Positions 2,491 through 18,538 of a stretch of 64,000 nt of DNA are shown one piece after another. The notes beneath the pieces were generated by a model. That model was given only the letters and a program-made list of their open reading frames with translations, had not been told where the DNA came from and did not search any database. The position numbers and the translations under genes were made by a program. How positions within the stretch are numbered: the first letter of the stretch is position 1; each line of letters begins with the position of its first letter. Origin of the DNA: Amylibacter marinus (lineage in GTDB: Bacteria; Pseudomonadota; Alphaproteobacteria; Rhodobacterales; Rhodobacteraceae); the NCBI RefSeq assembly GCF_030160015.1, contig NZ_BSNN01000004.1, positions 310,001 through 374,000 of the forward strand, read 5' to 3'.

Positions 2491-5400
2491 TTAGGCGCTT
2501 TTCTTGCCTTCATCTTTGCTCAGAGGGTGCTGAATATGCTTTAACATCTCTTTTGGGCAAATCTGAACAAACCGCGGCAACTCTTCTTCCCAGCGGCGCA
2601 AGATTTTCTTGGCTTTGGGGCTTTTTGTCTCGTCAAGATGCTCTTGGATTAGGCCCTTTAACTGACGCTCCCAGAAATCCACGGTCACAGGCACGGCAAC
2701 CAAGCTTTCCATATTGGCCAATTTCTCAAACTCGCCGTTTGGATCGTAAACATAGGCCATACCACCCGTCATACCCGCACCAAAGTTAGAGCCAATAGAC
2801 CCAAGGATCACCGCAACACCGCCAGTCATATATTCACAACCATTAGAACCACAGCCTTCGATCACCACTTTAGCACCCGAATTACGCACCGCAAAGCGCT
2901 CGCCCGCGCGCCCATTGGCGAACAATTTACCGTCCGTCGCACCGTATAGAACGGTGTTACCGATGATGGTGTTGTCCGCAGGGATCAGCGCGCTGGCCAA
3001 TGGTGGGCGCACAACGATTTTGCCCCCAGATAGCCCCTTGCCCACATAATCATTTGCATCGCCCGAGACCTCTAGCTTTAGCCCCGGTGCGGCGAACGCC
3101 CCCAGCGCCTGACCGGCGCTACCCGTCAGTTTCACGGTCAGGTGATCCTCTAGCAATTCATTGCGCATACCGAATTTTTTAACGATATGGGATGAAACCC
3201 GCGTGCCGATGGTGCGCAGGGTGTTTTGCACCGCATAGGACAGCTGCATTTTTTCACCATGCTTAAAGAACGGGCCGGCATCATTTAGGATCTGAGCATC
3301 CAACGTATCAGGCACTGCCTGACGTGGGCGATCACGATCGTAATTGATAGATGCGGCATCGTCCAAACTGATCAACATAGGGTTCAAATCCAAGTCATCA
3401 AGATGCGCGGAACCGCGGCTAACCTGTGCCAGCATATCCGCGCGGCCAATAACCTCGTCCATGGATCGCATACCAAGGCTAGCCAATACTTCACGAACCT
3501 CTTGGGCATAGAATGTGATCAGGTTTACCACCTTATCCGCAGAACCAGTGAATTTCTTACGCAGCTCCTCGTCTTGTACACAAACACCCACTGGGCATGT
3601 ATTGCTTTGGCACTGGCGTACCATGATACAGCCCATGGCGATCAATGCGGCGGTGCCGATGCCGTATTCCTCGGCCCCCAGCATCGCGGCAATCACAATA
3701 TCGCGGCCCGTACGCAGGCCACCATCGGTACGCAATGTTACCCGATCACGCAGGTTGTTCATGGCCAAAACTTGATGCGCCTCGGACAGGCCCATTTCCC
3801 ACGGCAGACCCGCATGTTTGATAGATGTTGCAGGGCTGGCACCTGTACCACCGTTGTGACCAGAGATCAGGATCACATCGGCCATGGCCTTGGCCACACC
3901 CGCCGCAATTGTACCAACACCAGAAGAGGCCACCAATTTCACCGTTACCTTACAGCGCGGGTTGATCTGTTTCAGATCGTAAATCAGCTGAGCCAAATCC
4001 TCGATAGAATAGATATCGTGGTGGGGGGGCGGCGAAATCAGCGTTACACCCTTGGTCGAGTGGCGAAGCCGCGCGATCAAATCGGTAACCTTGATACCGG
4101 GCAGCTGCCCGCCTTCGCCCGGCTTGGCACCCTGGGCGACCTTGATTTCCAGCTCTTCGCATTGGTTCAGATATTCCGCCGTCACGCCAAAACGTCCAGA
4201 GGCCACCTGTTTAATTTTCGCACTTGGGTTGTCGCCGTTTGGCTCTGGTACGAAATGTGCCGGATCTTCGCCGCCCTCGCCGCTGTCGGATTTTGCGCCG
4301 ATACGGTTCATAGCCACGTTCAGTGTTTTGTGGGCCTCTGGGCTAAGCGCACCCAAGGACATACCCGGTGTGACGAAGCGCTTGCGGATCGATGTGATGC
4401 TTTCGACCTCGTCTACAGGTACGGGTTTGGCCACCGGTTTGAAATCCAGCAGATCGCGTAGATGGATCGGTGGATTGGCCCGCATTTTTGCGGAATACTG
4501 CTTCCACAGATCAAATGAAGCGCGGTCACAAGCAGATTGAAGCATATGCATTGTCTGCGCTTCCCATGCGTGTTTTTCGCCGGTGCGGCGTGCCTTGTAA
4601 AATCCACCGATGGGCAAGAAATCAGTGCCTGACAGCCAGCCCTTGGCATGGATTTTGACAACTTTCTTCTGGATGCCGAACAAACCGATACCTGAAATGC
4701 GACTTTGCATACCGGGGAAGTATTCCGCCACCAATGCGCGGCTTAGGCCTACCGCTTCGAAATTCAGGCCACCACGATAGCTGGAAATCACTGATATTCC
4801 CATCTTGGCCATGATTTTCAGCAGGCCTTGGTTGATGGCCTCTTTGTAGTTTTCCATCGCTTGATCTAGCGATAGATCCAGCAGGCCGCGATCGATGCGA
4901 TCGGCAAGGCTGTCTTGGGCCAGATAGGGGTTCACTGTCGTAGCACCAGAGCCGATCAGCACCGCGAAATAGTGCGGGTCTACGCATTCTGCTGATTGCA
5001 CGTTAATGGAACAGAAGGTGCGCAGACCAATGCGTGTCAGGCCAGAATGCACGGCACTGGTAGCCAAGATCATCGGCATTGCAACGCGTTCGGTGCCCTG
5101 TGCTTTGTCAGACAGGATGATTTGGCCAGCACCAGAGCGCACGGCATCTTCGGCCTCTTCGCGGATGCGTTTTAGGCCGGTGGTCAGCCCATCCTGTGAT
5201 CCCGCCTCGAAGGTACAATCAATGGTGGTTACCGCATCACCGAACCGTTTGACCATCGCGCCAAACTGCGCATTGGTCACAAAGGGCGAGGACAGTGACA
5301 AAACCTCGGTCAGCTCGTTGCTGTCATCCAGTACATTGCCCAGATTGCCAAAACGGGTTTTCAGGCTCATCACCGCAGATTCGCGCAAACTGTCGATCGG

Positions 5401-7017
5401 AGGGTTGGTGACCTGCGAGAAGTTTTGGCGGAAATAGTGGCTAAGCGGGCGATACATTTCCGACAGAACCGCAGAGGGCGTATCATCCCCCATAGACTGC
5501 AAGGTCTCTTTGGAATCCTCGACCATCGGATGCAGGATCATTTCCAGCTCTTCCACGGAATAACCCGCCGCCACTTGACGTGTGCGTAGCTGTTCGCCGC
5601 TAAACTCTACTGTTTCGTTTTGCCCTGATGTCAGCTCGTCTAGGTCGACAACCGCCTTCACCTTCTTGGTGAAATCACGGCTGGCGGCCAGCTCGTCCTT
5701 TAGCTGTTCATCGTGTAGTAATCGGCCCTCGACCATATCCACGGCAATCATCTGCCCTGGGCCAAGCGCGCCCTTTTCACGCACAGTGCTCTCGTCTGTG
5801 GGTACCATGCCCACCTCGGAACCTGCGATCAGCAGATTATCCCCCGTGATTACATAGCGCATCGGGCGCAGACCATTGCGATCCAGACCGCCCACAACCC
5901 AGCGTCCATCAGTCATGGCCAATGCGGCAGGCCCATCCCATGGTTCCATAACAGAGTTACAGAATTCATACATATCACGCCAGTCATCCTTGACCCCTAT
6001 GGCATTCACAGATTCTGGCACCAGAATTGTTTTCGCCATCGGCGCATTGCGCCCTGCACGTACAATTGCCTCGAACACAGAATCAAGTGCGGCTGAATCC
6101 GAAGAACCCGCAGAAACCAGCGGCTTAATATCCTCGGCATAATCGCCAAAGCTTTTGGAAGCCATGCGAATTTCGTGGCTCTTCATCCAATTCACGTTAC
6201 CCTTTAGGGTATTGATTTCACCATTATGCGCCAACATACGGAAAGGCTGAGCCAACCACCACTGTGGGAAAGTATTGGTGGAATACCGTTGGTGATAAAT
6301 CGCAAATGCGGATTCAAAACGCTCGTCCATAAGATCGGGGTAGAATACCGCAACCTGCTCTGCCAACATCATACCTTTGTAAATGATAGAGCGGCAAGAC
6401 AAAGAACAGATGTAGAAATCCTGAACCTGTGCGGCGGTCACGGCCTTTTCGATGCGGCGGCGGATCACATAGAGCTCGCGCTCGAAGGTTACCTCGTCTA
6501 CGCCTTTGGAATTAGAGATCAGAATTTGCTCGATCTCGGGGCGGGTGGCATTTGCCTTCTCGCCCAGACAGGTTACATCCACCGGCACGTGGCGCCAGCC
6601 ATAGATGTAGTACCCCATGCGCAGAACTTCTGATTCTACAATTGTGCGGCATGTTTCCTGCGCGCCAAAATCTTGGCGTGGCAAAAACACCTGACCCACA
6701 GCGATATATTCGCCCTTGCGCGGTTCGTGGCCGGTACGCTCGACTTGATCATAGAAGAACGGGATGGGGATTTGCACGTGAATTCCCGCGCCATCACCGG
6801 TTTTACCATCCGCATCCACCGCACCGCGGTGCCAGATCGCCTTCAGCGCCGAAATGCCATTTTCAACCACCTTGCGGGACTTTTCGCCATCAACAGAAAC
6901 CACCAATCCCACACCACAAGAGCTGTGCTCGTCGGCCTCGGAATACATGCCATGGGCATCCATATAGGCGCGCTTGGCTTCTTGTTCTGCTTTCCATTTT
7001 GCATCGAATTTAGTCAT
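2491..7017 (-). CDS. gltB: Glutamate synthase (NADPH) large subunit
   Basis: The large subunit releases ammonia from glutamine and transfers it to 2-oxoglutarate, making glutamate; with GltD it forms the GOGAT complex of cytoplasmic nitrogen assimilation. At 1508 residues it has the family length. A 33-residue propeptide precedes the catalytic N-terminal cysteine (HSSCGVGLVV, Cys34) of the class II amidotransferase domain. The synthase domain carries the FMN site and the [3Fe-4S] cysteines CIMVRQCQSNTCPVGVC starting near residue 1130. The C-terminal beta-helix with many GG and GN turns (about 1230-1480) is complete. Gene order is gltD first, then gltB 47 bases on, the reverse of Escherichia coli. 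The start has an AAAGAAAG ribosome site. Confidence 0.97.
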   Translation of the reverse strand: MTKFDAKWKAEQEAKRAYMDAHGMYSEADEHSSCGVGLVVSVDGEKSRKVVENGISALKAIWHRGAVDADGKTGDGAGIHVQIPIPFFYDQVERTGHEPRKGEYIAVGQVFLPRQDFGAQETCRTIVESEVLRMGYYIYGWRHVPVDVTCLGEKANATRPEIEQILISNSKGVDEVTFERELYVIRRRIEKAVTAAQVQDFYICSLSCRSIIYKGMMLAEQVAVFYPDLMDERFESAFAIYHQRYSTNTFPQWWLAQPFRMLAHNGEINTLKGNVNWMKSHEIRMASKSFGDYAEDIKPLVSAGSSDSAALDSVFEAIVRAGRNAPMAKTILVPESVNAIGVKDDWRDMYEFCNSVMEPWDGPAALAMTDGRWVVGGLDRNGLRPMRYVITGDNLLIAGSEVGMVPTDESTVREKGALGPGQMIAVDMVEGRLLHDEQLKDELAASRDFTKKVKAVVDLDELTSGQNETVEFSGEQLRTRQVAAGYSVEELEMILHPMVEDSKETLQSMGDDTPSAVLSEMYRPLSHYFRQNFSQVTNPPIDSLRESAVMSLKTRFGNLGNVLDDSNELTEVLSLSSPFVTNAQFGAMVKRFGDAVTTIDCTFEAGSQDGLTTGLKRIREEAEDAVRSGAGQIILSDKAQGTERVAMPMILATSAVHSGLTRIGLRTFCSINVQSAECVDPHYFAVLIGSGATTVNPYLAQDSLADRIDRGLLDLSLDQAMENYKEAINQGLLKIMAKMGISVISSYRGGLNFEAVGLSRALVAEYFPGMQSRISGIGLFGIQKKVVKIHAKGWLSGTDFLPIGGFYKARRTGEKHAWEAQTMHMLQSACDRASFDLWKQYSAKMRANPPIHLRDLLDFKPVAKPVPVDEVESITSIRKRFVTPGMSLGALSPEAHKTLNVAMNRIGAKSDSGEGGEDPAHFVPEPNGDNPSAKIKQVASGRFGVTAEYLNQCEELEIKVAQGAKPGEGGQLPGIKVTDLIARLRHSTKGVTLISPPPHHDIYSIEDLAQLIYDLKQINPRCKVTVKLVASSGVGTIAAGVAKAMADVILISGHNGGTGASPATSIKHAGLPWEMGLSEAHQVLAMNNLRDRVTLRTDGGLRTGRDIVIAAMLGAEEYGIGTAALIAMGCIMVRQCQSNTCPVGVCVQDEELRKKFTGSADKVVNLITFYAQEVREVLASLGMRSMDEVIGRADMLAQVSRGSAHLDDLDLNPMLISLDDAASINYDRDRPRQAVPDTLDAQILNDAGPFFKHGEKMQLSYAVQNTLRTIGTRVSSHIVKKFGMRNELLEDHLTVKLTGSAGQALGAFAAPGLKLEVSGDANDYVGKGLSGGKIVVRPPLASALIPADNTIIGNTVLYGATDGKLFANGRAGERFAVRNSGAKVVIEGCGSNGCEYMTGGVAVILGSIGSNFGAGMTGGMAYVYDPNGEFEKLANMESLVAVPVTVDFWERQLKGLIQEHLDETKSPKAKKILRRWEEELPRFVQICPKEMLKHIQHPLSKDEGKKSA

Positions 7018-7064
7018 TTTGTGTCTTTCTTTCTGGTACCTTGATCCTGCTCAAAAGAGCTGGC

Positions 7065-8501
7065 TCATTCTGCCGCGACCACGTCTTGTGCATTCAAGTA
7101 TCCCAGAATGCTATCTGCTGCTTCGCGCCCATCGCGGATGGCCCAAACCACCAATGATGCGCCGCGTTCGATATCACCTGCGGCATAAACACCGTCGATG
7201 CTGGTGGCATGTGTTGTGAAATCAGATTTCACAGTGCCCCAGCGGGTGACCTCTAGTTCTGGTGTTCCCCAAAGGGTCGGCAGGTCTTCTGGGCTAAAGC
7301 CCAGCGCCTTGATCACCAGATCTGCATCTTCTTTGTAATCAGCCCCAAGGATTTCCTCGGGTGATTGGCGCCCTGATGCATCTGGTGCGCCTAGGCGCAT
7401 TTTGGATACCATCACACCTGTTACATCGCCCTCGCCGGTGAAACCCTTGGGCGCGGATAGCCAGACGAAATCCACGCCTTCCTCTTCGGCGTTTTGGGTT
7501 TCACGTTGGGAACCTGGCATATTCTTTTTATCACGGCGGTATAGGCATTTAACCGATGTTGCACCTTGGCGAATAGCCGTGCGGACGCAATCCATGGCCG
7601 TATCACCACCACCGATAACCACCACCTTTTTACCAGCGGCGGATAATTCACCGCTTTCGATTTCTGGAACGGTATCGCCCAAGTTCACACGGTTAGAGGC
7701 CGTTAGATAATCCAGCGCTTTTACGATGCCTTTGTTTCCAGAACCAACACCAGACAGCTCACGGGATTTGTAGACACCCGTGGCGATCAAAATCGCATCG
7801 TGTTTTGCGCGCAGATCGGCAAAGCTGATGTCCTCGCCAACGTTTGTGTTCATCACAAATTTAACACCGCCCTCAGCCAGCAATTCATTGCGGCGCATCA
7901 CCACATCTTTTTCCAGCTTGAACCCAGGAATACCATATGTCAGCAAGCCACCCGCGCGGTCATAGCGGTCATAGACCGTAACCTGTACGCCCGCTTTGCG
8001 CAGGCGATCTGCTGCTGCCAACCCTGCGGGGCCGGCCCCAATAATCGCCACATCTTCGCTACGCTCTTGCGTTGGGGCATTGGGTTTTACCCAGCCTTTT
8101 TCCCAGGCGGTATCTGTAATGTATTTTTCTACTGATCCGATGGTCACTGTGCCGTGGCCGGATTGCTCGATCACACAGTTGCCTTCGCACAGGCGATCCT
8201 GTGGGCAAATGCGGCCACAGATTTCAGGGAAGGTATTGGTGTCTTGGCTGATCTGATAGGCTTCTTGCAATCGCCCCTCGGCGGTCAATCGCAGCCAATC
8301 CGGGATATTGTTATGCAAAGGGCAATGAGACTGGCAATACGGCACCCCACATTGGCTACACCGGCTTGCTTGTTCTTCTGCTTTTACAGATGCGTATTGT
8401 TGATAAATTTCATCGTAATCATTCTTGCGAAGATCAGGGACACGCTTTTCTGGCATATCCCGCTCAACGTTTACGAATTTCAACATTTTCGTTTCCGCCA
8501 T
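7065..8501 (-). CDS. gltD: Glutamate synthase (NADPH) small subunit
   Basis: The 478-residue electron-input subunit of GOGAT takes electrons from NADPH through FAD and two [4Fe-4S] clusters to GltB. The N-terminal cysteines CSQCGVPYCQSHCP and CGRICPQDRLCEGNCV are intact. The FAD-binding motif AIIGAGPAGLAAADRL lies near residue 150 and the NADPH-binding motif VVIGGGDTAMDCVRTA near residue 285; AAGDIERGASLVVWAI closes the FAD site at the C-terminus. The frame opens further upstream to 8570, but that codon lies in the -10 box of the promoter at 8570-8599. The ATG at 8501 has an AAGGGTAGGG ribosome site and starts directly before the family's usual N-terminus. It is the first gene of the gltD-gltB operon. 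Confidence 0.96.
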   Translation of the reverse strand: MAETKMLKFVNVERDMPEKRVPDLRKNDYDEIYQQYASVKAEEQASRCSQCGVPYCQSHCPLHNNIPDWLRLTAEGRLQEAYQISQDTNTFPEICGRICPQDRLCEGNCVIEQSGHGTVTIGSVEKYITDTAWEKGWVKPNAPTQERSEDVAIIGAGPAGLAAADRLRKAGVQVTVYDRYDRAGGLLTYGIPGFKLEKDVVMRRNELLAEGGVKFVMNTNVGEDISFADLRAKHDAILIATGVYKSRELSGVGSGNKGIVKALDYLTASNRVNLGDTVPEIESGELSAAGKKVVVIGGGDTAMDCVRTAIRQGATSVKCLYRRDKKNMPGSQRETQNAEEEGVDFVWLSAPKGFTGEGDVTGVMVSKMRLGAPDASGRQSPEEILGADYKEDADLVIKALGFSPEDLPTLWGTPELEVTRWGTVKSDFTTHATSIDGVYAAGDIERGASLVVWAIRDGREAADSILGYLNAQDVVAAE

Positions 8502-8569
8502 AACCCTACCCTTGTTCGTCAAAATTTCAGAACGCCGTTCTACGGAATTCTGCAATGAATGAAAAGTCA

Positions 8570-8599
8570 ATTATACTGACCTATATTCAATAATTTCAA
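8570..8599 (-). promoter_or_regulatory. Probable sigma-70 promoter of gltD-gltB
   Basis: On the minus strand, TTGAAA (8599-8594) and TATAAT (8575-8570) are separated by 18 bases, a near-consensus housekeeping promoter about 70 bases ahead of the gltD ATG. Its position rules out translation starting at 8570. Confidence 0.65.
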
Positions 8600-8721
8600 A
8601 CATGACGCAAGGAAAATCAGCAAATACCACCAAAACAAGTCACCCAAGCTTACCTAATTAAATTAAATTCCCTTCTGTTTCAATTGCTTTTACTGTTCGC
8701 GAATCAACCCAAGGAAACCCT

Positions 8722-9525
8722 ATGCCCCTGTATTATCTTCTGCTACTTGCCATCATTCAGGGCCTAACCGAATTTTTACCGGTATCTTCATCGGGGCATC
8801 TGGCGGTTTTACCCAGCCTCACGGGCCAAGAAGACCAAGGCCAATTCATTGATGTGGCCGTGCATATCGGCACTTTGGGCGCGGTTGTTTTATATTTTTG
8901 GGCGGATGTAAAGATGGCCTTCTGGGGGTTCTTGCGCTGGTTCAAGGGCGATTTCACATCCCCAGGGGCGCAATTGGCGCTGTTGCTGGCGCTGGCCACC
9001 GTGCCGGTGGTGCTGTTTGGCATTCTGCTGAAACTAACAGGTATGGACGATGCGATACGTTCCGTAAAGGTAATCGCATGGTCAATGCTGCTGTTTGGGG
9101 TGGTGCTCTATGTGGTTGATCAGAAATCCCCCCAGCACAAATCAAAATCACAATGGTCAATAAAGGACGCCCTGATCATGGGCATGTGGCAGGCTGTGGC
9201 GTTGATCCCAGGCTCATCACGCTCTGGCACCACCATAACTGGCGCGCGCATTTTGGGATATTCGCGCACCGAGGGGGCCAAGCTGGCCATGTTGATGTCT
9301 ATCCCTACAATCATCGCATCTGGCACATTGCTGGGGGCAGAGGTTGCATCTACCGCCGATTGGGCCGCCGCCAAAAACGGCGCGATTGCAGCGATATTTG
9401 CATTTGGCTCTGGTTTAATCGCGCTAAAACTGATGATGCGGTTTTTGTCCAGCATCAGCTTTACGCCCTATGTGATCTACCGAATAATCCTAGGCATCGC
9501 GCTACTGATTTTTGCCTATAGCTAG
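8722..9525 (+). CDS. uppP: Undecaprenyl-diphosphatase (BacA type)
   Basis: UppP dephosphorylates undecaprenyl diphosphate so that the lipid carrier for peptidoglycan and surface glycans can be reused; it is an integral inner-membrane enzyme. The 267-residue protein has the two signature regions, GLTEFLPVSSSGHLAVL near residues 15-31 and IPGSSRSGTTITGARILGY near residues 155-173, containing the catalytic Glu and the Ser/Arg of the phosphate-binding loop. About seven to eight hydrophobic segments follow the family layout. The start has an AAGGAAA site. It runs alone on the plus strand, diverging from gltD, and its last four bases overlap the end of the convergent NAD-binding protein gene. Confidence 0.96.
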   Translation: MPLYYLLLLAIIQGLTEFLPVSSSGHLAVLPSLTGQEDQGQFIDVAVHIGTLGAVVLYFWADVKMAFWGFLRWFKGDFTSPGAQLALLLALATVPVVLFGILLKLTGMDDAIRSVKVIAWSMLLFGVVLYVVDQKSPQHKSKSQWSIKDALIMGMWQAVALIPGSSRSGTTITGARILGYSRTEGAKLAMLMSIPTIIASGTLLGAEVASTADWAAAKNGAIAAIFAFGSGLIALKLMMRFLSSISFTPYVIYRIILGIALLIFAYS

Positions 9526-10514
9526 GTTTTCAGATCCTTGGCGGATTCTGTTAGCTCGCTATACTGCCCATAGGGGCGGAAACGGTACAGGTACTCGGGC
9601 AATATCCCATCCATCGCGCACGGTGTAATCCCCAGATCGGCAAATGATTTTGCTGTGCTGTCTACCACACAATCTAGCGATAGGGTTCGCAACTGATCCG
9701 CTGATAGAATCTTGTTCTTGATCAGACCACCCGTCAGACGCTGGCATAAATCAAAGGACACAGCCTTAATCTTTGCCGCAAAGTTTGGCACCGCTATCAT
9801 CAGGCGCCTGCGGCGAATAACGCCGAGCATCTGCGCCATCAGCGCACGGTGCGATGCAACATCAGGCCCGCCCAGCTGATAAACCCCTGCTGAGGCACGG
9901 CCCAATACCGCCTGCGCGATAGCCGCCGCTACATCGTCAACATACACAGGTTGTTGCTGACTGTTGGCGCCCACAATGGGTAGAACCGGCGAAAGCCCCG
10001 CGAAAAATGCAGGGCGGTTAAAAAATCGATCCTCATTTCCAAACATCACCGCAGGGCGCATAATTACCGCAGACCTAAAGGCCGCCTTGACCAGCGCTTC
10101 TCCCGCCGCTTTGGTTTGGAAAAACCGGCTATTGCTGTGCACATCCGCCCCCAGTGCCGAGAGGTGAACCAAGCGCCCAACCCCCGCTTGTTGCGCCATC
10201 TTTGCAATGCGTTGTGCGCCATCCACCTGCACCGCATCCACATTGTTCTTGCCAAAGCAATCAAAGCTGCCGACACAATTCACCACAGCATCCGCCCCCG
10301 TCACAGCCGCCAGTGTAGAGGCATCATCGCGGATATTTGCCAAAATCGGTTCTACCTGACCAACGGCTCCGTAAGGGCGCACATGCAGGGCCTCGTTAGG
10401 ACGGCGCACAGCCACACGCACACGCCAACCCTCTTTCGCCATTCTCTGGGCAACATAGCGCCCCAGAAATCCGGAACCTCCGAAAATGGTAACCAGCTTG
10501 GGTGTAGATGACAT
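9522..10514 (-). CDS. NAD(P)-binding protein of the complex I NDUFA9-like family
   Basis: A 330-residue atypical short-chain dehydrogenase. The glycine-rich nucleotide-binding turn FGGSGFLGRYVAQRMAKEG stands at residues 10-28, followed by VRVAVRRP, the basic residues that favour NADP(H). NCVGSFDCFGKNN and HLSALGADVHSNSRF follow, and the usual catalytic Tyr/Lys pair is replaced (FFQTKAAGEALV keeps only Lys). This resembles NDUFA9-type proteins, which bind NADPH and stabilise respiratory complex I, and related ubiquinone-associated SDRs. The ATG at 10514 is used because it starts at the Rossmann fold; the open frame begins at 10568. No complex I genes are in the window, so a role in respiration is family knowledge, not context. 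Confidence 0.82.
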   Translation of the reverse strand: MSSTPKLVTIFGGSGFLGRYVAQRMAKEGWRVRVAVRRPNEALHVRPYGAVGQVEPILANIRDDASTLAAVTGADAVVNCVGSFDCFGKNNVDAVQVDGAQRIAKMAQQAGVGRLVHLSALGADVHSNSRFFQTKAAGEALVKAAFRSAVIMRPAVMFGNEDRFFNRPAFFAGLSPVLPIVGANSQQQPVYVDDVAAAIAQAVLGRASAGVYQLGGPDVASHRALMAQMLGVIRRRRLMIAVPNFAAKIKAVSFDLCQRLTGGLIKNKILSADQLRTLSLDCVVDSTAKSFADLGITPCAMDGILPEYLYRFRPYGQYSELTESAKDLKT

Positions 10515-10731
10515 GGTTTTCTCCGATAGATTTGGATAAAAAGTACCGCGCCGGCCGCTATCGAACAAGATAGAATTATCACAAAACGCGCCATGTCGCG
10601 AAAAATCAACTGAAACGCGAAATAGTGATTAAAGTCTCAATTTATGCGTGCTTATGGTGCATAATGCCCACAAAATGAATACCTTGGCGTCATAAATTTA
10701 TACAATATGTCACTCATTTCTAGGGTAACAA

Positions 10732-10759
10732 TTGAAGTTTATTTAAAATTGTCTAATCT
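10732..10759 (+). promoter_or_regulatory. Possible promoter of the small secreted protein gene
   Basis: TTGAAG (10732-10737) and TAATCT (10754-10759) with a 16-base spacer lie about 36 bases before the ATG at 10796, inside an AT-rich 280-base intergenic region. The match is moderate and unsupported by other data. Confidence 0.35.
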
Positions 10760-10795
10760 TTTCTCGCATTCACACAAGTATTAAAAGGGGATACC

Positions 10796-11029
10796 ATGAA
10801 AAAACTTATGCTTTCAGTTGCGGCGTTCGCAACTGCCTCCACCGCCGCATTCTCAGGCACACTTACCGAACCAATGGTCGAAGAAATGGTCGAAGACGTA
10901 GAAACAGGCGGCAGCAGCTCGTCTGGCATTCTGGTACCATTGTTGATTGTTGCGGCCGTAGCCGCCCTAATCGCCAGCAGCGACGACGATGATGATGACA
11001 ACTCTCTGACCAAGCGCATAACACGCTAA
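10796..11029 (+). CDS. Small exported, membrane-anchored acidic protein, function unknown
   Basis: A 77-residue protein I cannot assign a function. It has a clear signal peptide (MKKLMLSVAAFATASTAAFS, cleavage near residue 20) and a short acidic region with PMVEEMVEDVE. A serine/glycine linker leads to a hydrophobic helix (GILVPLLIVAAVAALIA, about residues 44-60), then six aspartates and a basic end (LTKRITR). Its likely topology is an exported N-terminus with a C-terminal anchor. An AAAGGGG ribosome site precedes the ATG and a hairpin follows the stop. I recall short proteins of this layout in roseobacters, usually left as hypothetical. It stands alone, convergent with the carrier-protein operon. 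The signal peptide, anchor and ribosome site make it a real gene despite its size. Confidence 0.75.
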   Translation: MKKLMLSVAAFATASTAAFSGTLTEPMVEEMVEDVETGGSSSSGILVPLLIVAAVAALIASSDDDDDDNSLTKRITR

Positions 11030-11036
11030 TCGATCC

Positions 11037-11059
11037 GGTGGCGCATAACTTGCGCCACC
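11037..11059. terminator. Shared hairpin between convergent genes
   Basis: GGTGGCGCA, TAACT, TGCGCCACC form a perfect 9-base-pair stem lying between the stop of the small secreted protein and the stop of the acyl carrier protein gene. There is no clear U-run on either strand, so it may be a weak bidirectional terminator or a 3'-end stabiliser. Confidence 0.55.
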
Positions 11060-11286
11060 TACTCTTCCATCAGTATATTGCGCAGGCTTTGCAGATTTTC
11101 CAGCGCAAGCACCGCATCGGGCGTTAACCTGCGTTCCAGTGCCTTCTCTACCGCCAAGATAATGTTCATATGGGCAATACTGTCCCATTCTGCGCTGCGC
11201 CCCAGCGCAAAACTGTTATCAATACGCGCACTTTCCACCCCCAATGCCAGAGCCAAAATTTCCACCGCCGGATCATGCTTGGCCAT
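11059..11286 (-). CDS. Free-standing acyl carrier protein
   Basis: A 75-residue carrier protein. The attachment motif is EWDSIAHMNIILAVEK, in which Ser36 would receive the 4'-phosphopantetheine arm; the following helix and the ending LENLQSLRNILMEE fit the four-helix ACP fold. It differs from housekeeping AcpP (DSLD motif), so it is a dedicated carrier. The ATG at 11286 has a GGGGGTGG ribosome site and overlaps the GNAT gene by 14 bases; the longer frame from 11331 would run deep into that gene. It is last in a ligase-GNAT-ACP operon, so the ligase probably loads an acyl group onto this carrier. The substrate cannot be read from the sequence. Confidence 0.88.
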   Translation of the reverse strand: MAKHDPAVEILALALGVESARIDNSFALGRSAEWDSIAHMNIILAVEKALERRLTPDAVLALENLQSLRNILMEE

Positions 11287-11875
11287 TGCCACCCCCTGTT
11301 TCTGAAAGAACATCATCGGCCATTTTTTCAAACAGACAGACCCCTAGGTGCTGTTGTGCCTTCCTATCCAAATAGGATTTCTGCACAAACCCTACACTGC
11401 GAAAACCCAGTCTTTTATAATTATAGATCGAGGCAAAATTGCGATCTAAGCACTTACCAGAAAAGCGCATCACTCGATCACTTTGGGCAAAGTGTTGGAT
11501 AATTTTTTGGCGCGCCTCAAAATATATATCTTGCCCCCACCACTCTTGGGCATGGATAACCACGGCCATATCTATCGTGCCACTCTCGGCCAATATCACC
11601 TGATGTAGACCCACTGCCTTGCCGATTTCCTTGGGCACCAACGCGTGATAAAAAATGCTGTGACGGTCTGGCCATTTCATTTTACGCTGCCACTGAAGGT
11701 TCGAATAACCTTGGGTGTTCATCATCAAATTACGCCTGATATCTTCGCTGTTTTGCCAATGGCGCGCCAGATTCTGGGCCACTTTTTTGCTACAAATCAC
11801 CAAGCGCAAGCGCTCTGTTTCAAGTGTTTGATGCAGGTATCGATCCGTTTCTTTCCTGTTAAACATCCTGGTCAT
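11273..11875 (-). CDS. GNAT-family acyltransferase (RimJ/RimL-like)
   Basis: A 200-residue GNAT protein. It opens with LETERLRLVIC, the usual first strand of the Acetyltransf_3 (RimJ/RimL) branch; GKAVGLHQVILAESGTIDMAVVI gives the central strands; and NFASIYNYKRLGFRSVGFVQ is the helix and strand that hold the acyl donor. The expected donor is an acyl-CoA or, given the neighbours, an acyl group on the carrier protein encoded next. The gene starts 17 bases inside the 3' end of the ligase gene and overlaps the ACP gene, so the three are translationally coupled. An ATG at 11866 is an alternative start. The acceptor is unknown; an amine on a sugar, amino acid or peptide is the family norm. Confidence 0.78.
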   Translation of the reverse strand: MTRMFNRKETDRYLHQTLETERLRLVICSKKVAQNLARHWQNSEDIRRNLMMNTQGYSNLQWQRKMKWPDRHSIFYHALVPKEIGKAVGLHQVILAESGTIDMAVVIHAQEWWGQDIYFEARQKIIQHFAQSDRVMRFSGKCLDRNFASIYNYKRLGFRSVGFVQKSYLDRKAQQHLGVCLFEKMADDVLSETGGGNGQA

Positions 11876-13277
11876 CCAATCCTATACAAAGTGCGCGGAT
11901 TTCCGAACGCACCACCTTGCCGCGATCATTGCGGGGCAGCGAGGGCATTCCAAAAATCATGCTGGGTACCGCCTCGGCGCGACATTGGGTGCGACACCAC
12001 GCTATCAAATCCGATACCGCGGTGTTCGGGCCCGCCACCACTGCCACGGCAACTTGTTCACCGGCTACCGGATCAGGTATGCCAAATGCGCAGGCCTCGG
12101 ATACATCTGGGTGGCGCTCCAACAACATGTCTATTTCCTCTGCCAGCACCTTTATCCCGGCGCGATTAATCTCACTTTTAATACGGCCAACCAGCGTTAG
12201 CTGGCCTTGGCTGATTTCGCCAATATCACCGGTGCGCAACCATTCACCATAGAAGTGCGCATTGGGATTGTCTGCGCCCTGCCAGTACCCCTGCATTATG
12301 GTTGGGCTGTTCACCAGAACCTCGCCGCGGCCTTCGGCCTTTACCCGCCCGTTCGCATACACCGCCAGCGTTCCACCCCAAGCGCGGCCAACATAGCCCC
12401 CCTGACCCTGCGCATCAGATAGTGCGCCACCAGAAATCCAGTTAGCCGTTTCTGTCATCCCATAGGTGTTAAATACCTCACCCCCACCCAGCCAATCCGC
12501 AATGTCCTGCCACAATCCAATCGACAGAGGTGCAGACCCCACATGCACCCGCGCAGGCACATTCGCTGGGCGCGGCGATATTTGTAATGCCATTTTCCAG
12601 AAGGTCGGCACCGATGAGAAAAATGAGATAGCCTGTTGATCCAGCATCGCACCAAAGCCCCCTAGCACCCTGAAACCCGGACTGGGCCACAGGATCAGAC
12701 GCCCCCCCGCCAACAGCGGTGTTAGACAGTTCCCGATCAGCCCATGGCCAAAAAACACAGGCAGGATGCACAGCGTTCGGCACAGGGTATCGCGGCCAAT
12801 TTCAGCGATGTTTAAGGATGCCCTAGAGCGCAATCCGTGTAGGCTATGGGTAACGCCCTTGGGGATACCCGTGGTGCCCGATGTCATCAGGATCAGTGCC
12901 GGATCATCCGGCCCAAGGGGTGCAGTATCGACACCGTGGGCAAGTTTCGGGAATTTCAATTCTGTTTGGCCTAGCCATGCCCCGGCATTTACGGCGCGCA
13001 CCACGCGGGATTGCTCGTCAGGCTTTAGGTTCGGGTTAACACAGACCGCCACCAACCCTACCTGCCAACACGCAAATAGTCCCACCAAAGTATCCAGCCC
13101 GCTTTTCTCGGCTATCACCACACGCGCCAAGCGCGGCAAATGCAGCGCACGCAACCCCTCAGCGGCTCTGTGAATAAGGTGAATCAACTCATCATAGCAA
13201 ACCTCGCGGCCGGTTTCGGGCTCGGCAATCTCTACGGTCGTTGGAAAATCACTGACCAGTATAGGCAAAGCACACAT
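11859..13277 (-). CDS. Class I adenylate-forming acyl ligase
   Basis: A 472-residue ANL-superfamily enzyme that activates a carboxylic acid as an acyl-adenylate and passes it to a thiol. Core motifs are complete: LILMTSGTTGIPKGVTHS (phosphate loop, near residue 142), NTYGMTETANWISG, LRTGDIGEI, VGRIKSEINRAGIKV, and the C-terminal lysine in NDRGKVVRSEI. The region corresponding to motif A4 reads PVFFGHGLIGN, without the aspartate that binds the amino group in amino-acid-activating domains, so a non-amino acid substrate is more likely (inference). The ATG at 13277 has an AAGAGGGA ribosome site; the frame extends to 13385 without a good start. With the overlapping GNAT and ACP genes it looks like a small acyl-transfer pathway rather than beta-oxidation. 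Confidence 0.85.
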   Translation of the reverse strand: MCALPILVSDFPTTVEIAEPETGREVCYDELIHLIHRAAEGLRALHLPRLARVVIAEKSGLDTLVGLFACWQVGLVAVCVNPNLKPDEQSRVVRAVNAGAWLGQTELKFPKLAHGVDTAPLGPDDPALILMTSGTTGIPKGVTHSLHGLRSRASLNIAEIGRDTLCRTLCILPVFFGHGLIGNCLTPLLAGGRLILWPSPGFRVLGGFGAMLDQQAISFFSSVPTFWKMALQISPRPANVPARVHVGSAPLSIGLWQDIADWLGGGEVFNTYGMTETANWISGGALSDAQGQGGYVGRAWGGTLAVYANGRVKAEGRGEVLVNSPTIMQGYWQGADNPNAHFYGEWLRTGDIGEISQGQLTLVGRIKSEINRAGIKVLAEEIDMLLERHPDVSEACAFGIPDPVAGEQVAVAVVAGPNTAVSDLIAWCRTQCRAEAVPSMIFGMPSLPRNDRGKVVRSEIRALCIGLDDQDV

Positions 13278-13394
13278 GACAAAGTCCCTCTTAATTCTTG
13301 CAAACCTAACAGTACCGGACGAAATTTTCCACCCAAGGCACGCATCCATGTTGACAGCAATTTTTAGGTCAGATAGGTGGGCCAAACCACCTGT

Positions 13395-13480
13395 GCCCAG
13401 GTGGCGGAATGGTAGACGCGCTAGCTTCAGGTGCTAGTGTCCTTATGGACGTGGAGGTTCAAGTCCTCTCCTGGGCACCA
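13395..13480 (+). tRNA. tRNA-Leu, anticodon CAG
   Basis: An 86-base tRNA with encoded CCA. The acceptor arms GCCCAGG and CCTGGGC pair over seven bases, and the anticodon stem encloses TTCAGGT, giving anticodon CAG for CUG codons. A long variable arm (GTCCTTATGGAC) marks a class II tRNA, and the T arm has GGTTCAAGTCC. It lies between the divergently oriented ligase operon and the downstream end of the polyamine oxidase gene. Confidence 0.96.
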
Positions 13481-13723: not shown

Positions 13724-15022
13724 CTAAATTCGATCTCGCATGCCATACCACAGCATCGCCAGCACCAACAATGGCGTGCGCATATGTCGCCCGCCCGGGA
13801 AACGCGGTGTCGGAACGGATGCCATTAGATCAAAGCCTTCTTTGCGGCCCATCACCGCCTCTGCCGCCAGCTTGCCACCCATGGACGCCATGGCAACACC
13901 ATGCCCAGAATAGCCCGAGGCGCTGAAAATATTCTCATCCACATAGGCAAAGCTGGGCATGCGGTTCATAGTTATCCCTAAGGTTCCCCCCCACGCATAA
14001 TCAATACGCGCCTCAGCCAGTTGTGGAAAAATCTGCAACATCGGCTTGCGCACTTTGGATGCGATATCCTTTGGGAACCGATAACCATAAGATTCACTCC
14101 CCCCGAAAACCATTCGCCCATCTTCGGAAAACCGAAAGTAATTTACCACAAATTTGCTGTCAGCCACCGCATAATCATAGGCAATTAGCGCCGCGCGCTG
14201 TACAGAATCCAATCGCTCTGTTGCCACAATAAAATTGTTGATCGGCATCAGGCGCTCGGCCACTTGGCCTTCCAAATCTCCTAAATATCCATTGCACCCT
14301 AGGATCAAATGATCCGCTGTAATCTGGGCATCGTCGGTGCTGATACGCACCTGCGCCCCGCGCTCAATACTAAGTGCGGCGCTCTCTTCAAAAATCTTTA
14401 CCCCTGCGGCCAAGGCCATTTGAGCCAACCCAATGGCATAGCGCAAGGGCTGGATATGCCCGGCCCCTTGGTCAAGAGAGCCACCAAAATAGGCCTCGGA
14501 TCCCACCATAGCGCGCATCTCGTCACAGGACAGACAGCGAATATCACTGTAGCCATAGTCTTGGTTCAATTTTTGAACATAAGCGTGGTCAACGCGCACA
14601 TGGCGAGGGCGGTGCATTGCGTGGATGATCCCGGGCCGAAAGTTACAGTCCGGTATTTGCGACACCAAATCCTTAACCAGCTGCACGGCATCCTGCGCAA
14701 TCCCCCATAGCGCGCGCGCATCCGACCGGCCGATCATCGCTTCCAACGCGTCTTGCTCTAGCCGCTGGCCAGTGCCCACCTGCCCGCCATTGCGCCCGGA
14801 TGCGCCAAATCCGATGCGCTGGGCCTCGATCAAGGTAACGTCGTAGCCCGCCCACGCTAGATGAAGCGCGGCCGACAATCCCGTAAACCCCGCACCAATG
14901 ACGCAAACTTGTGTCTGTATCTGCCCGTGTGCCTTTGGTTGGCGTGGCAGAGGTTTTGCATCCGCCGCGTAATATGAGGCGGGGTATTCCCCCTGTTGGT
15001 CATTGGCATAGAGCAGATCCAT
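13724..15022 (-). CDS. FAD-dependent oxidase, PuuB-like (gamma-glutamylputrescine oxidase)
   Basis: A 432-residue flavoprotein of the DAO family. The FAD-binding turn VCVIGAGFTGLSAALHLAWAG is at residues 39-59, followed by GASGRNGGQVGTGQRLEQ, the extended motif shared with gamma-glutamylputrescine oxidase PuuB. The C-terminal SGYSGHGVAMASMGGKLAAE contacts the flavin. PuuB oxidises gamma-glutamylputrescine to the aldehyde with release of ammonia and hydrogen peroxide. The start overlaps the aminotransferase stop by one base, and the PuuA-like ligase and GntR regulator lie upstream on the same strand. Related DAO enzymes act on other secondary amines, so the substrate rests on context: high for polyamine degradation, moderate for the exact compound. 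Confidence 0.82.
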   Translation of the reverse strand: MDLLYANDQQGEYPASYYAADAKPLPRQPKAHGQIQTQVCVIGAGFTGLSAALHLAWAGYDVTLIEAQRIGFGASGRNGGQVGTGQRLEQDALEAMIGRSDARALWGIAQDAVQLVKDLVSQIPDCNFRPGIIHAMHRPRHVRVDHAYVQKLNQDYGYSDIRCLSCDEMRAMVGSEAYFGGSLDQGAGHIQPLRYAIGLAQMALAAGVKIFEESAALSIERGAQVRISTDDAQITADHLILGCNGYLGDLEGQVAERLMPINNFIVATERLDSVQRAALIAYDYAVADSKFVVNYFRFSEDGRMVFGGSESYGYRFPKDIASKVRKPMLQIFPQLAEARIDYAWGGTLGITMNRMPSFAYVDENIFSASGYSGHGVAMASMGGKLAAEAVMGRKEGFDLMASVPTPRFPGGRHMRTPLLVLAMLWYGMRDRI

Positions 15023-16419
15023 TACGCCGCTTTCATCAGACCTTCGGCGCGCATAATCACCAGCGTCTCATCCAGAGATTTCACCGCCAGTTCAATCATC
15101 CGGTCAATATCAGCACGCGACATGGTCAAGGGTGGCGAGATGATCATCTGATCACCCACATGGCGCATGATCAAATGGTTGGCGAAGCAGCGGTTGCGGC
15201 AGATCAGCCCCACAACGCCCACTTCAGATGCAAATTTTGCGCGCGATGCCTTATCTGGCGTTAGGGCCAAGGCCCCCATCATGCCGCATATGCGCGCCTG
15301 CCCGACAAGCGGATGCGCCTCTAGCTCTGCCCAGCGCTTGGCCAGGTAGGGCGCGGTATTCTCGCGCACATTCTCGATCAATTTTTCTTCTTCTAGAATC
15401 CGCAAGTTTTCCAACGCCACGGCACAGGAAACAGGGTGTCCCGAATAGGTATACCCATGATTGAACTCGCCAGCCTTGCCCACCACATCCGCTACCTCGT
15501 CGGAAACCATAGAGCCCCCAATCGGGGCATACCCCGACGACAGACCCTTGGCGATTGTCATAATATCAGGTTTAATACCAAAAGTTTGCGATCCAAACCA
15601 ATTCCCCGTACGACCGAAGCCGCAGATCACCTCATCCGCGATCAGCAGGATTTCATGGGCATCGCAAATGCGCTGAATTTCGGGCCAGTATGTTTCTGGT
15701 GGGATAATCACCCCACCTGCACCCTGCACTGGCTCTGCGATAAATGCCGCAACATTATCGGCCCCCAGCTCTGCTATTTTTGTCTCTAACTGGCGGGCGC
15801 GTTCCAGCCCAAATTCGGCGGGATCGGTATCACCGCCTTCAACATACCAATTAGGTTGATCGATATAATCGATATCAGGAATAGGTAGGCCACCCTGCGC
15901 ATGCATGCCCTTCATACCCCCCAAAGACGCCCCCCCCATAGTAGAGCCATGATAGGCGTTGTGGCGGCTTATGATGGTTTTCTTGGTTGGTTTGCCTTTG
16001 GCCGCCCAATAGTGTCGCACAAGGCGGATATTGGTGTCATTGGCCTCGGATCCCGAGCAGGCATAAAAGACATTGTTCAAATCATGCGGCGCCAATTCCG
16101 CCAGCTTGCTGGCCAAGGCGATAGCAGGCACATGTGTAGTCTGGAAAAAGGTATTGTAATAGGGCAATTCACGCATTTGGCGCGCCGCCGCATCGGCCAG
16201 CTCGGTGCGACCATAGCCGATATTCACACACCACAGCCCAGACATGGCATCCAGAATTTGGTTGCCCTCGGAATCCGTCAGATTAACCCCATCGGCCCGA
16301 GTAATCACCAAGGCACCAGTATCTGCCAACTCGGCGTTGGCGGTAAAGGGATGCATGTGATGGGCCGCATCCAGCGCTTGTAGCTCGTTTGTTGGTAGAT
16401 GATTTGAAATCTTGTTCAT
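15022..16419 (-). CDS. PLP-dependent omega-aminotransferase, putrescine/polyamine type (SpuC-like)
   Basis: A 465-residue class III aminotransferase that would move the terminal amino group of putrescine or a related amine to pyruvate or another keto acid. Visible are the cofactor phosphate region ACSGSEANDTNIRLVRHYW, the stacking-residue region SRHNAYHGSTMGGASLGG, the aspartate of LLIADEVICGFGRTGNWFG, and the Schiff-base lysine in DIMTIAKGLSSGYAPIGG. The length and the sequence HTFTYSGHP-like stretch (NHGYTYSGHPVSCAVALE) match the SpuC and putrescine-pyruvate aminotransferase branch. It lies ten bases after the PuuA-like gene and is coupled to the oxidase. The two enzymes may serve parallel routes, transamination versus glutamylation and oxidation. 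Confidence 0.87.
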   Translation of the reverse strand: MNKISNHLPTNELQALDAAHHMHPFTANAELADTGALVITRADGVNLTDSEGNQILDAMSGLWCVNIGYGRTELADAAARQMRELPYYNTFFQTTHVPAIALASKLAELAPHDLNNVFYACSGSEANDTNIRLVRHYWAAKGKPTKKTIISRHNAYHGSTMGGASLGGMKGMHAQGGLPIPDIDYIDQPNWYVEGGDTDPAEFGLERARQLETKIAELGADNVAAFIAEPVQGAGGVIIPPETYWPEIQRICDAHEILLIADEVICGFGRTGNWFGSQTFGIKPDIMTIAKGLSSGYAPIGGSMVSDEVADVVGKAGEFNHGYTYSGHPVSCAVALENLRILEEEKLIENVRENTAPYLAKRWAELEAHPLVGQARICGMMGALALTPDKASRAKFASEVGVVGLICRNRCFANHLIMRHVGDQMIISPPLTMSRADIDRMIELAVKSLDETLVIMRAEGLMKAA

Positions 16420-16428
16420 GGGGGTTCC

Positions 16429-17808
16429 TTATACATTCAATAGCAAATGCTGACGTTCCCACGGCGAAATCTCGCGTTGATACTCCTCCAGCTCTGCGTG
16501 TTTAATATTGCAATACATGGTACAAAACTCTTCGCCCAGAACCGCGCGGATATCATCTGCTTGCTCTAGCAAGCGTAGTGCGGCACTTAGGCTAGCGGGC
16601 AAATCTTGTTCTGATTGATAAACCTCGGTAGTGGCCGCATCGCGCGGGGCAACCGCATTCATCATGCCTAAATATCCCGCCGCCAAGCTCGCGGCCAGCG
16701 ATAGATATGGGTTGGTGTCCGCACCAGTAACGCGGTTTTCCACCCGCCGCCCAGCCGCATCGGAATGGGGGATACGCAGACCAGTGGTGCGATTATCCTC
16801 CGCCCATTCCAGATTGGTTGGCGCGCTCATTTGCGCTGCAAAACGGCGATAGGAATTCACATATGGCGCCAGAAAGGGGACGACCTCCATCAGGTGTTTT
16901 TGCGATCCACCAAGAAAATGATAGAAGGCCTCCGTGGGTGCGCCTGCCTCATCGGAAAAAATATTGCGCCCTGTCTTGGTATCTATGACGGATTGATGGA
17001 TGTGCATGGCGCTGCCTGGTTGATCGCGCATGGGCTTGGCCATGAATGTGGCATACAGCCCATGTTTCAGCGCGGCCTCTTGGATCGCACGCTTAAAATA
17101 GAACACACGATCTGCCAATCGCATCGGATCGCCATGCATCAGATTGAATTCAATTTGGCCAGCCCCGCCCTCTTGGATCACGGTGTCGATTTCTAACCCC
17201 TGTGCCTCGGCATAATCATAAATGGTATCAATCACGGCGCCGTAATCATCTACGGCCACCATGGAAAAGGGTTGTTGACGGGCGCCTTTGCGCCCTGTGC
17301 GCCCAATGGGCGCCTCGATATCCTTGGTTGGATCTGTATTTGGTTTGGTCAGATAGAATTCTATTTCCGGGGCGACGATGGGCTTCCACCCTTGTGCCGC
17401 ATAAAGATCCAGAACCCGCCGAAGCACGGTACGCGGTGCAACAGCCAAGGGTGCGCCATCGCGCGTTTCTAGATCATTAATCACCTGCATACTGCAATCT
17501 GCGGCCCACGGAACGGCACAGGCGGTGCTGATATCTGGGCGCAAAACGATGTCTTTTTCCATCCACTGGTTTTCAATATCCATATCCACATATTCGCCAG
17601 AAATTGTCTGATAGAACAAAGAAATCGGCAGAAAGAATGTCTGCTTGGGCGAGAATTTGTAATGCGGCATCGCCTTGCCACGGGACATACCCGCAAGATC
17701 TGGAATGATGCATTCCACCTCGTCTAGGTTCCGTCCATTGCGGTACTCATTGAATGCCTTTGGCAGAGCCTCGATCCAGTTTTTACTATTCACGGGTTGT
17801 CCTAACAT
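16429..17808 (-). CDS. Glutamine synthetase-like gamma-glutamylamine ligase (PuuA-like), first copy
   Basis: A 459-residue member of the glutamine synthetase superfamily. It has GS catalytic features: PEIEFYL (metal-binding Glu), EGGAGQIEFNL, the nucleotide/metal His in GSAMHIHQSV, NSYRRF, and ENRVTGADTNPYL near the C-terminus. The family member PuuA joins glutamate to putrescine, opening the gamma-glutamyl route of polyamine breakdown; a housekeeping GlnA is unlikely given sequence and context. The frame reaches a TTG at 17859, but that would sit within the promoter and operator at 17847-17876, so the ATG at 17808 is the start. First gene of the ligase-aminotransferase-oxidase operon. A second, diverged copy lies at 22639-23976. 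Confidence 0.87.
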   Translation of the reverse strand: MLGQPVNSKNWIEALPKAFNEYRNGRNLDEVECIIPDLAGMSRGKAMPHYKFSPKQTFFLPISLFYQTISGEYVDMDIENQWMEKDIVLRPDISTACAVPWAADCSMQVINDLETRDGAPLAVAPRTVLRRVLDLYAAQGWKPIVAPEIEFYLTKPNTDPTKDIEAPIGRTGRKGARQQPFSMVAVDDYGAVIDTIYDYAEAQGLEIDTVIQEGGAGQIEFNLMHGDPMRLADRVFYFKRAIQEAALKHGLYATFMAKPMRDQPGSAMHIHQSVIDTKTGRNIFSDEAGAPTEAFYHFLGGSQKHLMEVVPFLAPYVNSYRRFAAQMSAPTNLEWAEDNRTTGLRIPHSDAAGRRVENRVTGADTNPYLSLAASLAAGYLGMMNAVAPRDAATTEVYQSEQDLPASLSAALRLLEQADDIRAVLGEEFCTMYCNIKHAELEEYQREISPWERQHLLLNV

Positions 17809-17846
17809 TTTTTGAGAACCCTGCGGAATGCTGTGCAGGGGTGAAA

Positions 17847-17876
17847 TAAATATGATCAAATTATTTCAACTGTCAA
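17847..17876 (-). promoter_or_regulatory. Promoter with internal operator for the polyamine degradation operon
   Basis: On the minus strand, TTGACA (17876-17871) and TATTTA (17852-17847) are spaced by 18 bases. Between them, and touching the -10 box, lies AATTTGATCATATT (17862-17849), a 13/14 match to the perfect palindrome in the potF promoter. The site overlaps the end of the GntR gene. Likely bound by the GntR/FCD regulator encoded beside it (inference). Confidence 0.7.
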
Positions 17877-18538
17877 TCGGCTTCTTCACCATTCTGAAAG
17901 ATCATATCCTGTCGAACGTGATCCATGCCTTGGCGCAAATCCTCTTCGATAGCTGAATAAACCATGCTGGAATCCGATGCCACTAAACCGGTGATCGCCT
18001 TGTCGTGTTTATCAGGCAGGTTCGTGGTGCCACGCCGTCCACCCACCGCCCGCAGGCTTGGCCCAATTCGCAGCCACAAAGACAGCGCGATAGATTGCAG
18101 AACCTCGGCTTCGGCAGCGCGATACAGGCGGAAATGAAATGCGTGGTTCTCGCGCAGATATGCCCCAATATCGCCCTTGGCGATCGCCGCGTCCACACGA
18201 TCATCTATGATCTGTAGATCCGAAACCAGCCTAGGTGTAGATTTTTTTGCGGCTATTTCAGCTAATTTTGGCTCGATCGCCAAACGAGCATAATAAATCT
18301 CTTCCAGATGGGATAACCCCAATTTGGGCACAACAATACGCCGATTACCCATGGCCATCAACGCCCCCTCAGCGGTCAATCTGCGCAATGCCTCGCGCAC
18401 AGGTGTCATGCCCACATCCAGCTGATCAACCAATCCCTGAATGGTAACGGGTTGGCCTGGCACCAAATCACCAAACAAAATCATGTCCCGCAAACAGCCA
18501 TAAACCCGCGCATGCTCTGGAATATTTTTCGACGTCAT
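17873..18538 (-). CDS. GntR-family regulator with FCD domain, probable polyamine regulon repressor
   Basis: A 221-residue regulator. Residues 5-70 form the GntR winged helix-turn-helix (RVYGCLRDMILFGDLVPGQ, then MTPVREALRRLTAEGAL). The rest is a helical FCD effector domain (IDDRVDAAIAKGDIGAYLRE, NHAFHFRLYRAAEAEVL, SMVYSAIEEDLRQGMDHV) with histidines that usually bind a metal or acid ligand. It lies between the catabolic operon it precedes and the divergent potFGHI operon; both promoters carry the same TTTGATCAAA-type palindrome. It therefore probably represses both and responds to a polyamine or a glutamylated intermediate. That control is inferred from site placement and gene order. Confidence 0.88.
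   Translation of the reverse strand: MTSKNIPEHARVYGCLRDMILFGDLVPGQPVTIQGLVDQLDVGMTPVREALRRLTAEGALMAMGNRRIVVPKLGLSHLEEIYYARLAIEPKLAEIAAKKSTPRLVSDLQIIDDRVDAAIAKGDIGAYLRENHAFHFRLYRAAEAEVLQSIALSLWLRIGPSLRAVGGRRGTTNLPDKHDKAITGLVASDSSMVYSAIEEDLRQGMDHVRQDMIFQNGEEAD

Follow-up and report, generated by a model that had tools for sequence, protein, structure and literature searches.

Transfer of an activated carboxylic acid from a free acyl carrier protein (ACP) to an amine has been shown in vitro for SbzL (adenylation), SbzG or SbzK (ACP), and SbzI (GNAT N-acyltransferase) of the altemicidin and SB-203208 system (PMC6331615). The locus described here shares this logic, namely, an adenylate-forming enzyme, a free ACP, and a GNAT, which here would N-acylate an amine from acyl-ACP. 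However, Sbz belongs to a large Streptomyces cluster with a known product, whereas the present locus is a bare three-gene alphaproteobacterial operon and is likened to Sbz by gene roles. Both the discrete adenylate-forming enzyme with intact motifs and the stand-alone carrier protein with a modifiable serine that mark an Sbz-type module were found. In alphaproteobacteria, the acyl-ACP synthetase AasR acylates its own AcpR rather than CoA (PMC9386255). There, likewise, a dedicated synthetase and a specialised ACP are encoded together; the acyl-ACP passes to a serine palmitoyltransferase, not to a GNAT, and no such gene lies alongside the sets examined.

FeeM-type N-acyl amino acid synthases, as cited in PMC6331615, are GNAT-type enzymes taking the acyl group from an ACP; the GNAT studied here matches a single Pfam family (Acetyltransf_3), and the likeness to FeeM is one of description. 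Flagellin glycosylation islands contain an ACP and an AMP-dependent synthetase among amino-sugar genes (PMC7874193, PMC4875605), but they add reductases and lux-type genes, and the fixed ligase-GNAT-ACP triple is not described there. PseH-like and other nonulosonate N-acyltransferases also belong to the GNAT family; relatives of the present GNAT occur in NeuB/DegT clusters, and so does one of the sets. PseH uses acetyl-CoA and has neither a ligase nor an ACP of its own. A literature search covering few subscription papers found the same three-gene set nowhere described. It constitutes a new family whose chemical logic is known. Outside Alphaproteobacteria, a locus of genome G780 (L172, 11733-15539) has the order GNAT-ligase-ACP with a different ligase, followed by a P450-like gene; the same logic may have been assembled there independently.

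Gene content of the set

The window is the whole analysed stretch of 64,000 nucleotides from Amylibacter marinus. Its features relevant to the set are listed in Table 1. The earlier note had placed an overlapping ligase, GNAT, and ACP here, which the coordinates, Pfam matches, and alignments bear out; the ligase and GNAT genes overlap by 17 bp, and the GNAT and ACP genes by 14 bp. As that note also said, polyketide or peptide synthetase genes were not seen nearby. Its view that the operon holds nothing else is right for the three-gene unit and needs correcting for the inserted stretch, which adds a small secreted-protein gene.

Table 1. Position and assignment of the set, the inserted stretch, and its edges (window coordinates).
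Feature	Length	Position	Strand	Assignment or remark
NAD(P)-binding epimerase-like protein		9522..10568	-	Resident gene, left edge of insertion
Inserted stretch		10545..13345 (limits approximate)		Between epimerase gene and tRNA-Leu promoter
Small secreted/membrane protein gene	77 aa	10796..11029	+	Convergent with ACP gene; absent from empty sites
Stand-alone acyl carrier protein	75 aa	11059..11286	-	WDS motif with phosphopantetheine serine, ACP profile
GNAT acyltransferase	200 aa	11273..11875	-	Acetyltransf_3, aligned invariant columns, family profile
AMP-forming acyl ligase	472 aa	11859..13277	-	Pfam AMP-binding and AMP-binding_C, aligned motifs
tRNA-Leu (CAG)		13395..13480	+	Resident gene, right edge of insertion

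The ligase matched Pfam AMP-binding (165.7 bits) and AMP-binding_C (44.3 bits). Its catalytic motifs are retained: the P-loop TSGTTGxPKG, YGMTE, TGD, and the C-terminal lysine motif RNDRGK were all found, and they are invariant or nearly so in an alignment of 14 ligases of the family. The nearest solved-structure matches of the ligase profile are CoA ligases (oxalate-CoA ligase and FadD13), a likeness that does not settle the acyl acceptor. The alignments compared contained no amino-acid adenylation domain, so the earlier note's argument against an amino acid from a missing A4 aspartate stays a conjecture. As to a FAAL-specific insertion, the window ligase is short and its predicted model poor. 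The predicted structures had mean pLDDT values of 46 for the GNAT and 37 for the ligase, too low for pocket analysis or fold searching.

The GNAT scored 30.5 bits against Acetyltransf_3 (cut-off 25.4), and the W-G, E, and N-Y columns were invariant among 14 aligned GNATs. Its family profile matched structurally solved GNATs, the match to the solved PseH entry being weak (E=0.056). The ACP fell just below the Pfam PP-binding cut-off (20.2 against 20.8 bits); nevertheless, its assignment is secure, since W-D-S, containing the phosphopantetheine serine, is invariant in all 15 aligned rows (the window and 14 of the same family). The ACP profile also matched structurally solved ACPs. The ACP reading frame can be read upstream as far as a TTG at 11331. 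The promoter and terminator scan of the set gave nothing above chance level.

The small secreted-protein gene, whose product has an acidic tail, belongs to a multi-copy family with 6 matches in the window genome, common in Rhodobacteraceae and matched in 78 of 100 genomes. A homologue is likewise convergent with the ACP gene at L015. In genome G001, the copy beside the set is not that genome's best match to the window protein. The protein was considered as a pathway partner and rejected, given the many copies, the wide occurrence, and the G001 result; the gene is probably a passenger and does not encode a pathway enzyme.

Recurrence and insertion site

Complete sets were located by GNAT and GNAT-profile searches followed by reading of the neighbourhoods. 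In alphaproteobacteria, 16 were obtained (window, L014, L015, L016, L054, L055, L056, L058-L064, L169, and L194), distributed over ten family codes and one unplaced MAG. The gene order is ligase-GNAT-ACP in 15 of them and ligase-ACP-GNAT in L059, with intergenic distances mostly from -17 to +9 bp. In a class-wide sample, a ligase and an ACP adjoin 10 of the 12 GNAT matches at E<=1e-27 (the window's own excluded); of the other two, L065 is a contig fragment that has the ACP, and at L057 the GNAT stands by itself. Ligase and GNAT tree distances are strongly correlated (Mantel rho 0.85, 0 of 5000 permutations, 15 sets). Those of the ACP, which is too short for good tree resolution, also correlate (0.38 and 0.47; 73 and 9 of 5000 permutations). 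On a wider GNAT tree, membership of the set takes 3 changes versus 10.2 in shuffles. A ligase tree with outgroups was discarded because of long branches.

The three genes are thus inherited as one unit, as shown by conserved linkage, order, and co-inheritance, and these sequence comparisons support a real functional unit rather than a chance neighbourhood. The earlier note would have been refuted had the three genes not co-occurred in relatives. They do so in ten or more families, with matching ligase and GNAT trees, and the note is therefore not refuted on this count. The spread is very patchy, with the set in 1 of 33 genomes of the genus and in 3 of 295 genomes in one family sample. A plasmid collection yielded no match.

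In the window genome, the set is an insertion. The epimerase gene has conserved neighbours in congeners (uppP/bacA-like and gltD). In each of the 13 congeners where the stretch compared included tRNA-Leu(CAG) upstream of the epimerase gene, the site is empty, consisting of the epimerase gene, about 130 bp, and the tRNA-Leu with nothing between, whereas this distance in the window is about 2.8 kb. Since the site is empty in these congeners, the set and the small secreted-protein gene form an insertion of about 2.8 kb. The TTGACA promoter element of the tRNA is retained just upstream of 13395; this places the insertion 5' of tRNA-Leu, with the tRNA promoter at one edge and the epimerase gene at the other, away from the usual 3' attachment end. 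Classical integration into tRNA genes takes place at the 3' end. No convincing flanking repeats, att repeat, or IS ends were found at the insertion, nor did the flanking genes scanned include an integrase. A tRNA-targeted integrative element was rejected on the 5' position and the missing repeats and integrase. The earlier note had read the adjacent tRNA-Leu as a common boundary of accessory genes; the adjacency holds, but that meaning is not supported. To judge from synteny, the tRNA-Leu is an old neighbour of the site. At 13724-18538, the window contains genes for an FAD oxidoreductase, a class III aminotransferase, a glutamine-synthetase-like protein, and a GntR regulator, resembling a polyamine/amine utilisation operon.

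Proposed acyl transfer and its alternatives

According to the proposed mechanism, the ligase would adenylate one carboxylic acid with ATP, the acyl group of the resulting acyl-AMP would be loaded onto the dedicated ACP at its phosphopantetheine arm, and the GNAT would move the acyl group from the acyl-ACP to an amino group. The earlier note had outlined the same route; SbzL, SbzG/K, and SbzI give it a demonstrated precedent (PMC6331615), extended here by analogy. ACP rather than CoA is a plausible carrier, because specialised acyl-ACP synthetases (AasR/AcpR) exist in alphaproteobacteria. Alternatively, the GNAT may draw on acetyl-CoA or an acyl-CoA, and the ACP may work with another enzyme. 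We estimate a joint probability of about 0.66 that the set is a horizontally spread, mobile, self-contained operon and that it N-acylates an amine with one acid via the ACP and the GNAT.

The neighbourhoods conflict as to the acceptor. Tentatively ranked first is a surface-glycan amino sugar. This choice is favoured by L064 and by the DegT/NeuB neighbourhoods of related GNATs: L064 lies inside a NeuB/PseB-like/DegT cluster whose products include NeuB, a fusion of CTP transferase and aminotransferase, a DegT aminotransferase, a Polysacc_synt_2 dehydratase, and a GT28-GNAT fusion, and GNAT relatives lacking the set (L066-L069, L173, L174, and L176) are found near DegT aminotransferases and partly near NeuB. 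NeuB is absent from 8 of the 13 genomes carrying the set, and therefore nonulosonates are not a general acceptor. Beside the window copy, there are no sugar genes, and the combination of NeuB and an aminotransferase found at L064 does not occur there; in the window genome, the acceptor would have to come from genes at another place on the chromosome. The single NeuB of this genome lies elsewhere, and the ten neighbours scanned there include no DegT gene. Another small amine or an amino lipid is a possible second choice, and a peptide, the third, is unlikely. At L060, L061, and L063 (one family), the genes directly upstream of the set are homologous and match ATP-grasp weakly; the set stands alone in the window, at L015, L058, and others.

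Contig C2 of the window genome (G000) also carries the NeuB locus L178 (G000:C2:828500-848400), where positions 3527-11796 encode NeuB, UDP-GlcNAc 2-epimerase, CTP transferase, two Kdo-transferase-like proteins, and an LpxL-like protein, possibly for a nonulosonate in the lipid A core. The same contig, distinct from that of the window, has a lasso-like cluster (L188, G000:C2:268000-287000, at 8101-12986) that encodes B1, B2 (76.1 bits against a cut-off of 33), an HprK-like kinase, and a protein resembling a cyclase, together with three precursors in tandem that are nearly identical.

Tailoring of a ribosomal peptide, in which the GNAT would acylate a free amine after B1 leader recognition and B2 cleavage, replacing lasso closure or besides it, is an unlikely reading, although it draws on close relatives of the window copy. 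At L169 (6813-12169) and L016 (4122-7678), the set is embedded in or adjoins genes for lasso-type B1/PqqD, B2, an HprK-like kinase, and NTP_transf_5. The B2 model NF033537 scored 57.8 bits at L169 and 32.9 bits, against a cut-off of 33, at L016; a small ORF at L169 has a YxxP leader-like stretch, L055 is near a C39-peptidase ABC exporter, and GNAT acylation of RiPPs is already known from albusnodin and selidamides. However, a lasso cyclase was recognised at neither L016 nor L169, and no precursor peptide was found at L016. B1/B2-type genes are missing at L015 and in the contig part covered at L194, and the window copy has no B1, B2, cyclase, or precursor beside it. Genome G001 has no B2-type protein anywhere, and most of the 16 sets lack a RiPP neighbour. 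A narrower form, confined to the window clade, is very unlikely: B1/B2 would free an N-terminus that the GNAT caps with the ACP-borne acid in place of lasso cyclisation, the window copy acting on a peptide encoded elsewhere. If true, such a peptide-acylating module would imply a class of linear peptides that are lasso-derived and N-acylated.

It is also rather improbable that the ligase and the ACP form a specialised acyl-ACP synthetase pair of the AasR/AcpR kind for lipid synthesis and that an amino lipid is what the GNAT N-acylates. The arrangement of a ligase with a dedicated ACP does match rhodobacterial sphingolipid synthesis (PMC9386255), but lipid genes, that for serine palmitoyltransferase included, are absent from the window operon and were not recognised beside other annotated sets. 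Least probable is a ligase supplying acyl-CoA to general metabolism, with the GNAT and the ACP as mere neighbours. The closest solved relatives, which are CoA ligases, together with several further ligases of the superfamily in the window genome, point in that direction; such an accidental neighbourhood is disfavoured by the three-gene linkage in at least ten families and the congruent ligase and GNAT trees.

N-acylation of an amine through the ACP is the preferred reading of this compact enzyme family, which has no name in the libraries searched. Should loading of the ACP and transfer by the GNAT be borne out, the set would be a very small natural three-protein N-acylation kit, which cells would pass around as a ready-made means of attaching one acid to an amine. 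Its varied neighbourhoods (sugar, peptide, and stand-alone) make the choice of acceptor testable by comparison.
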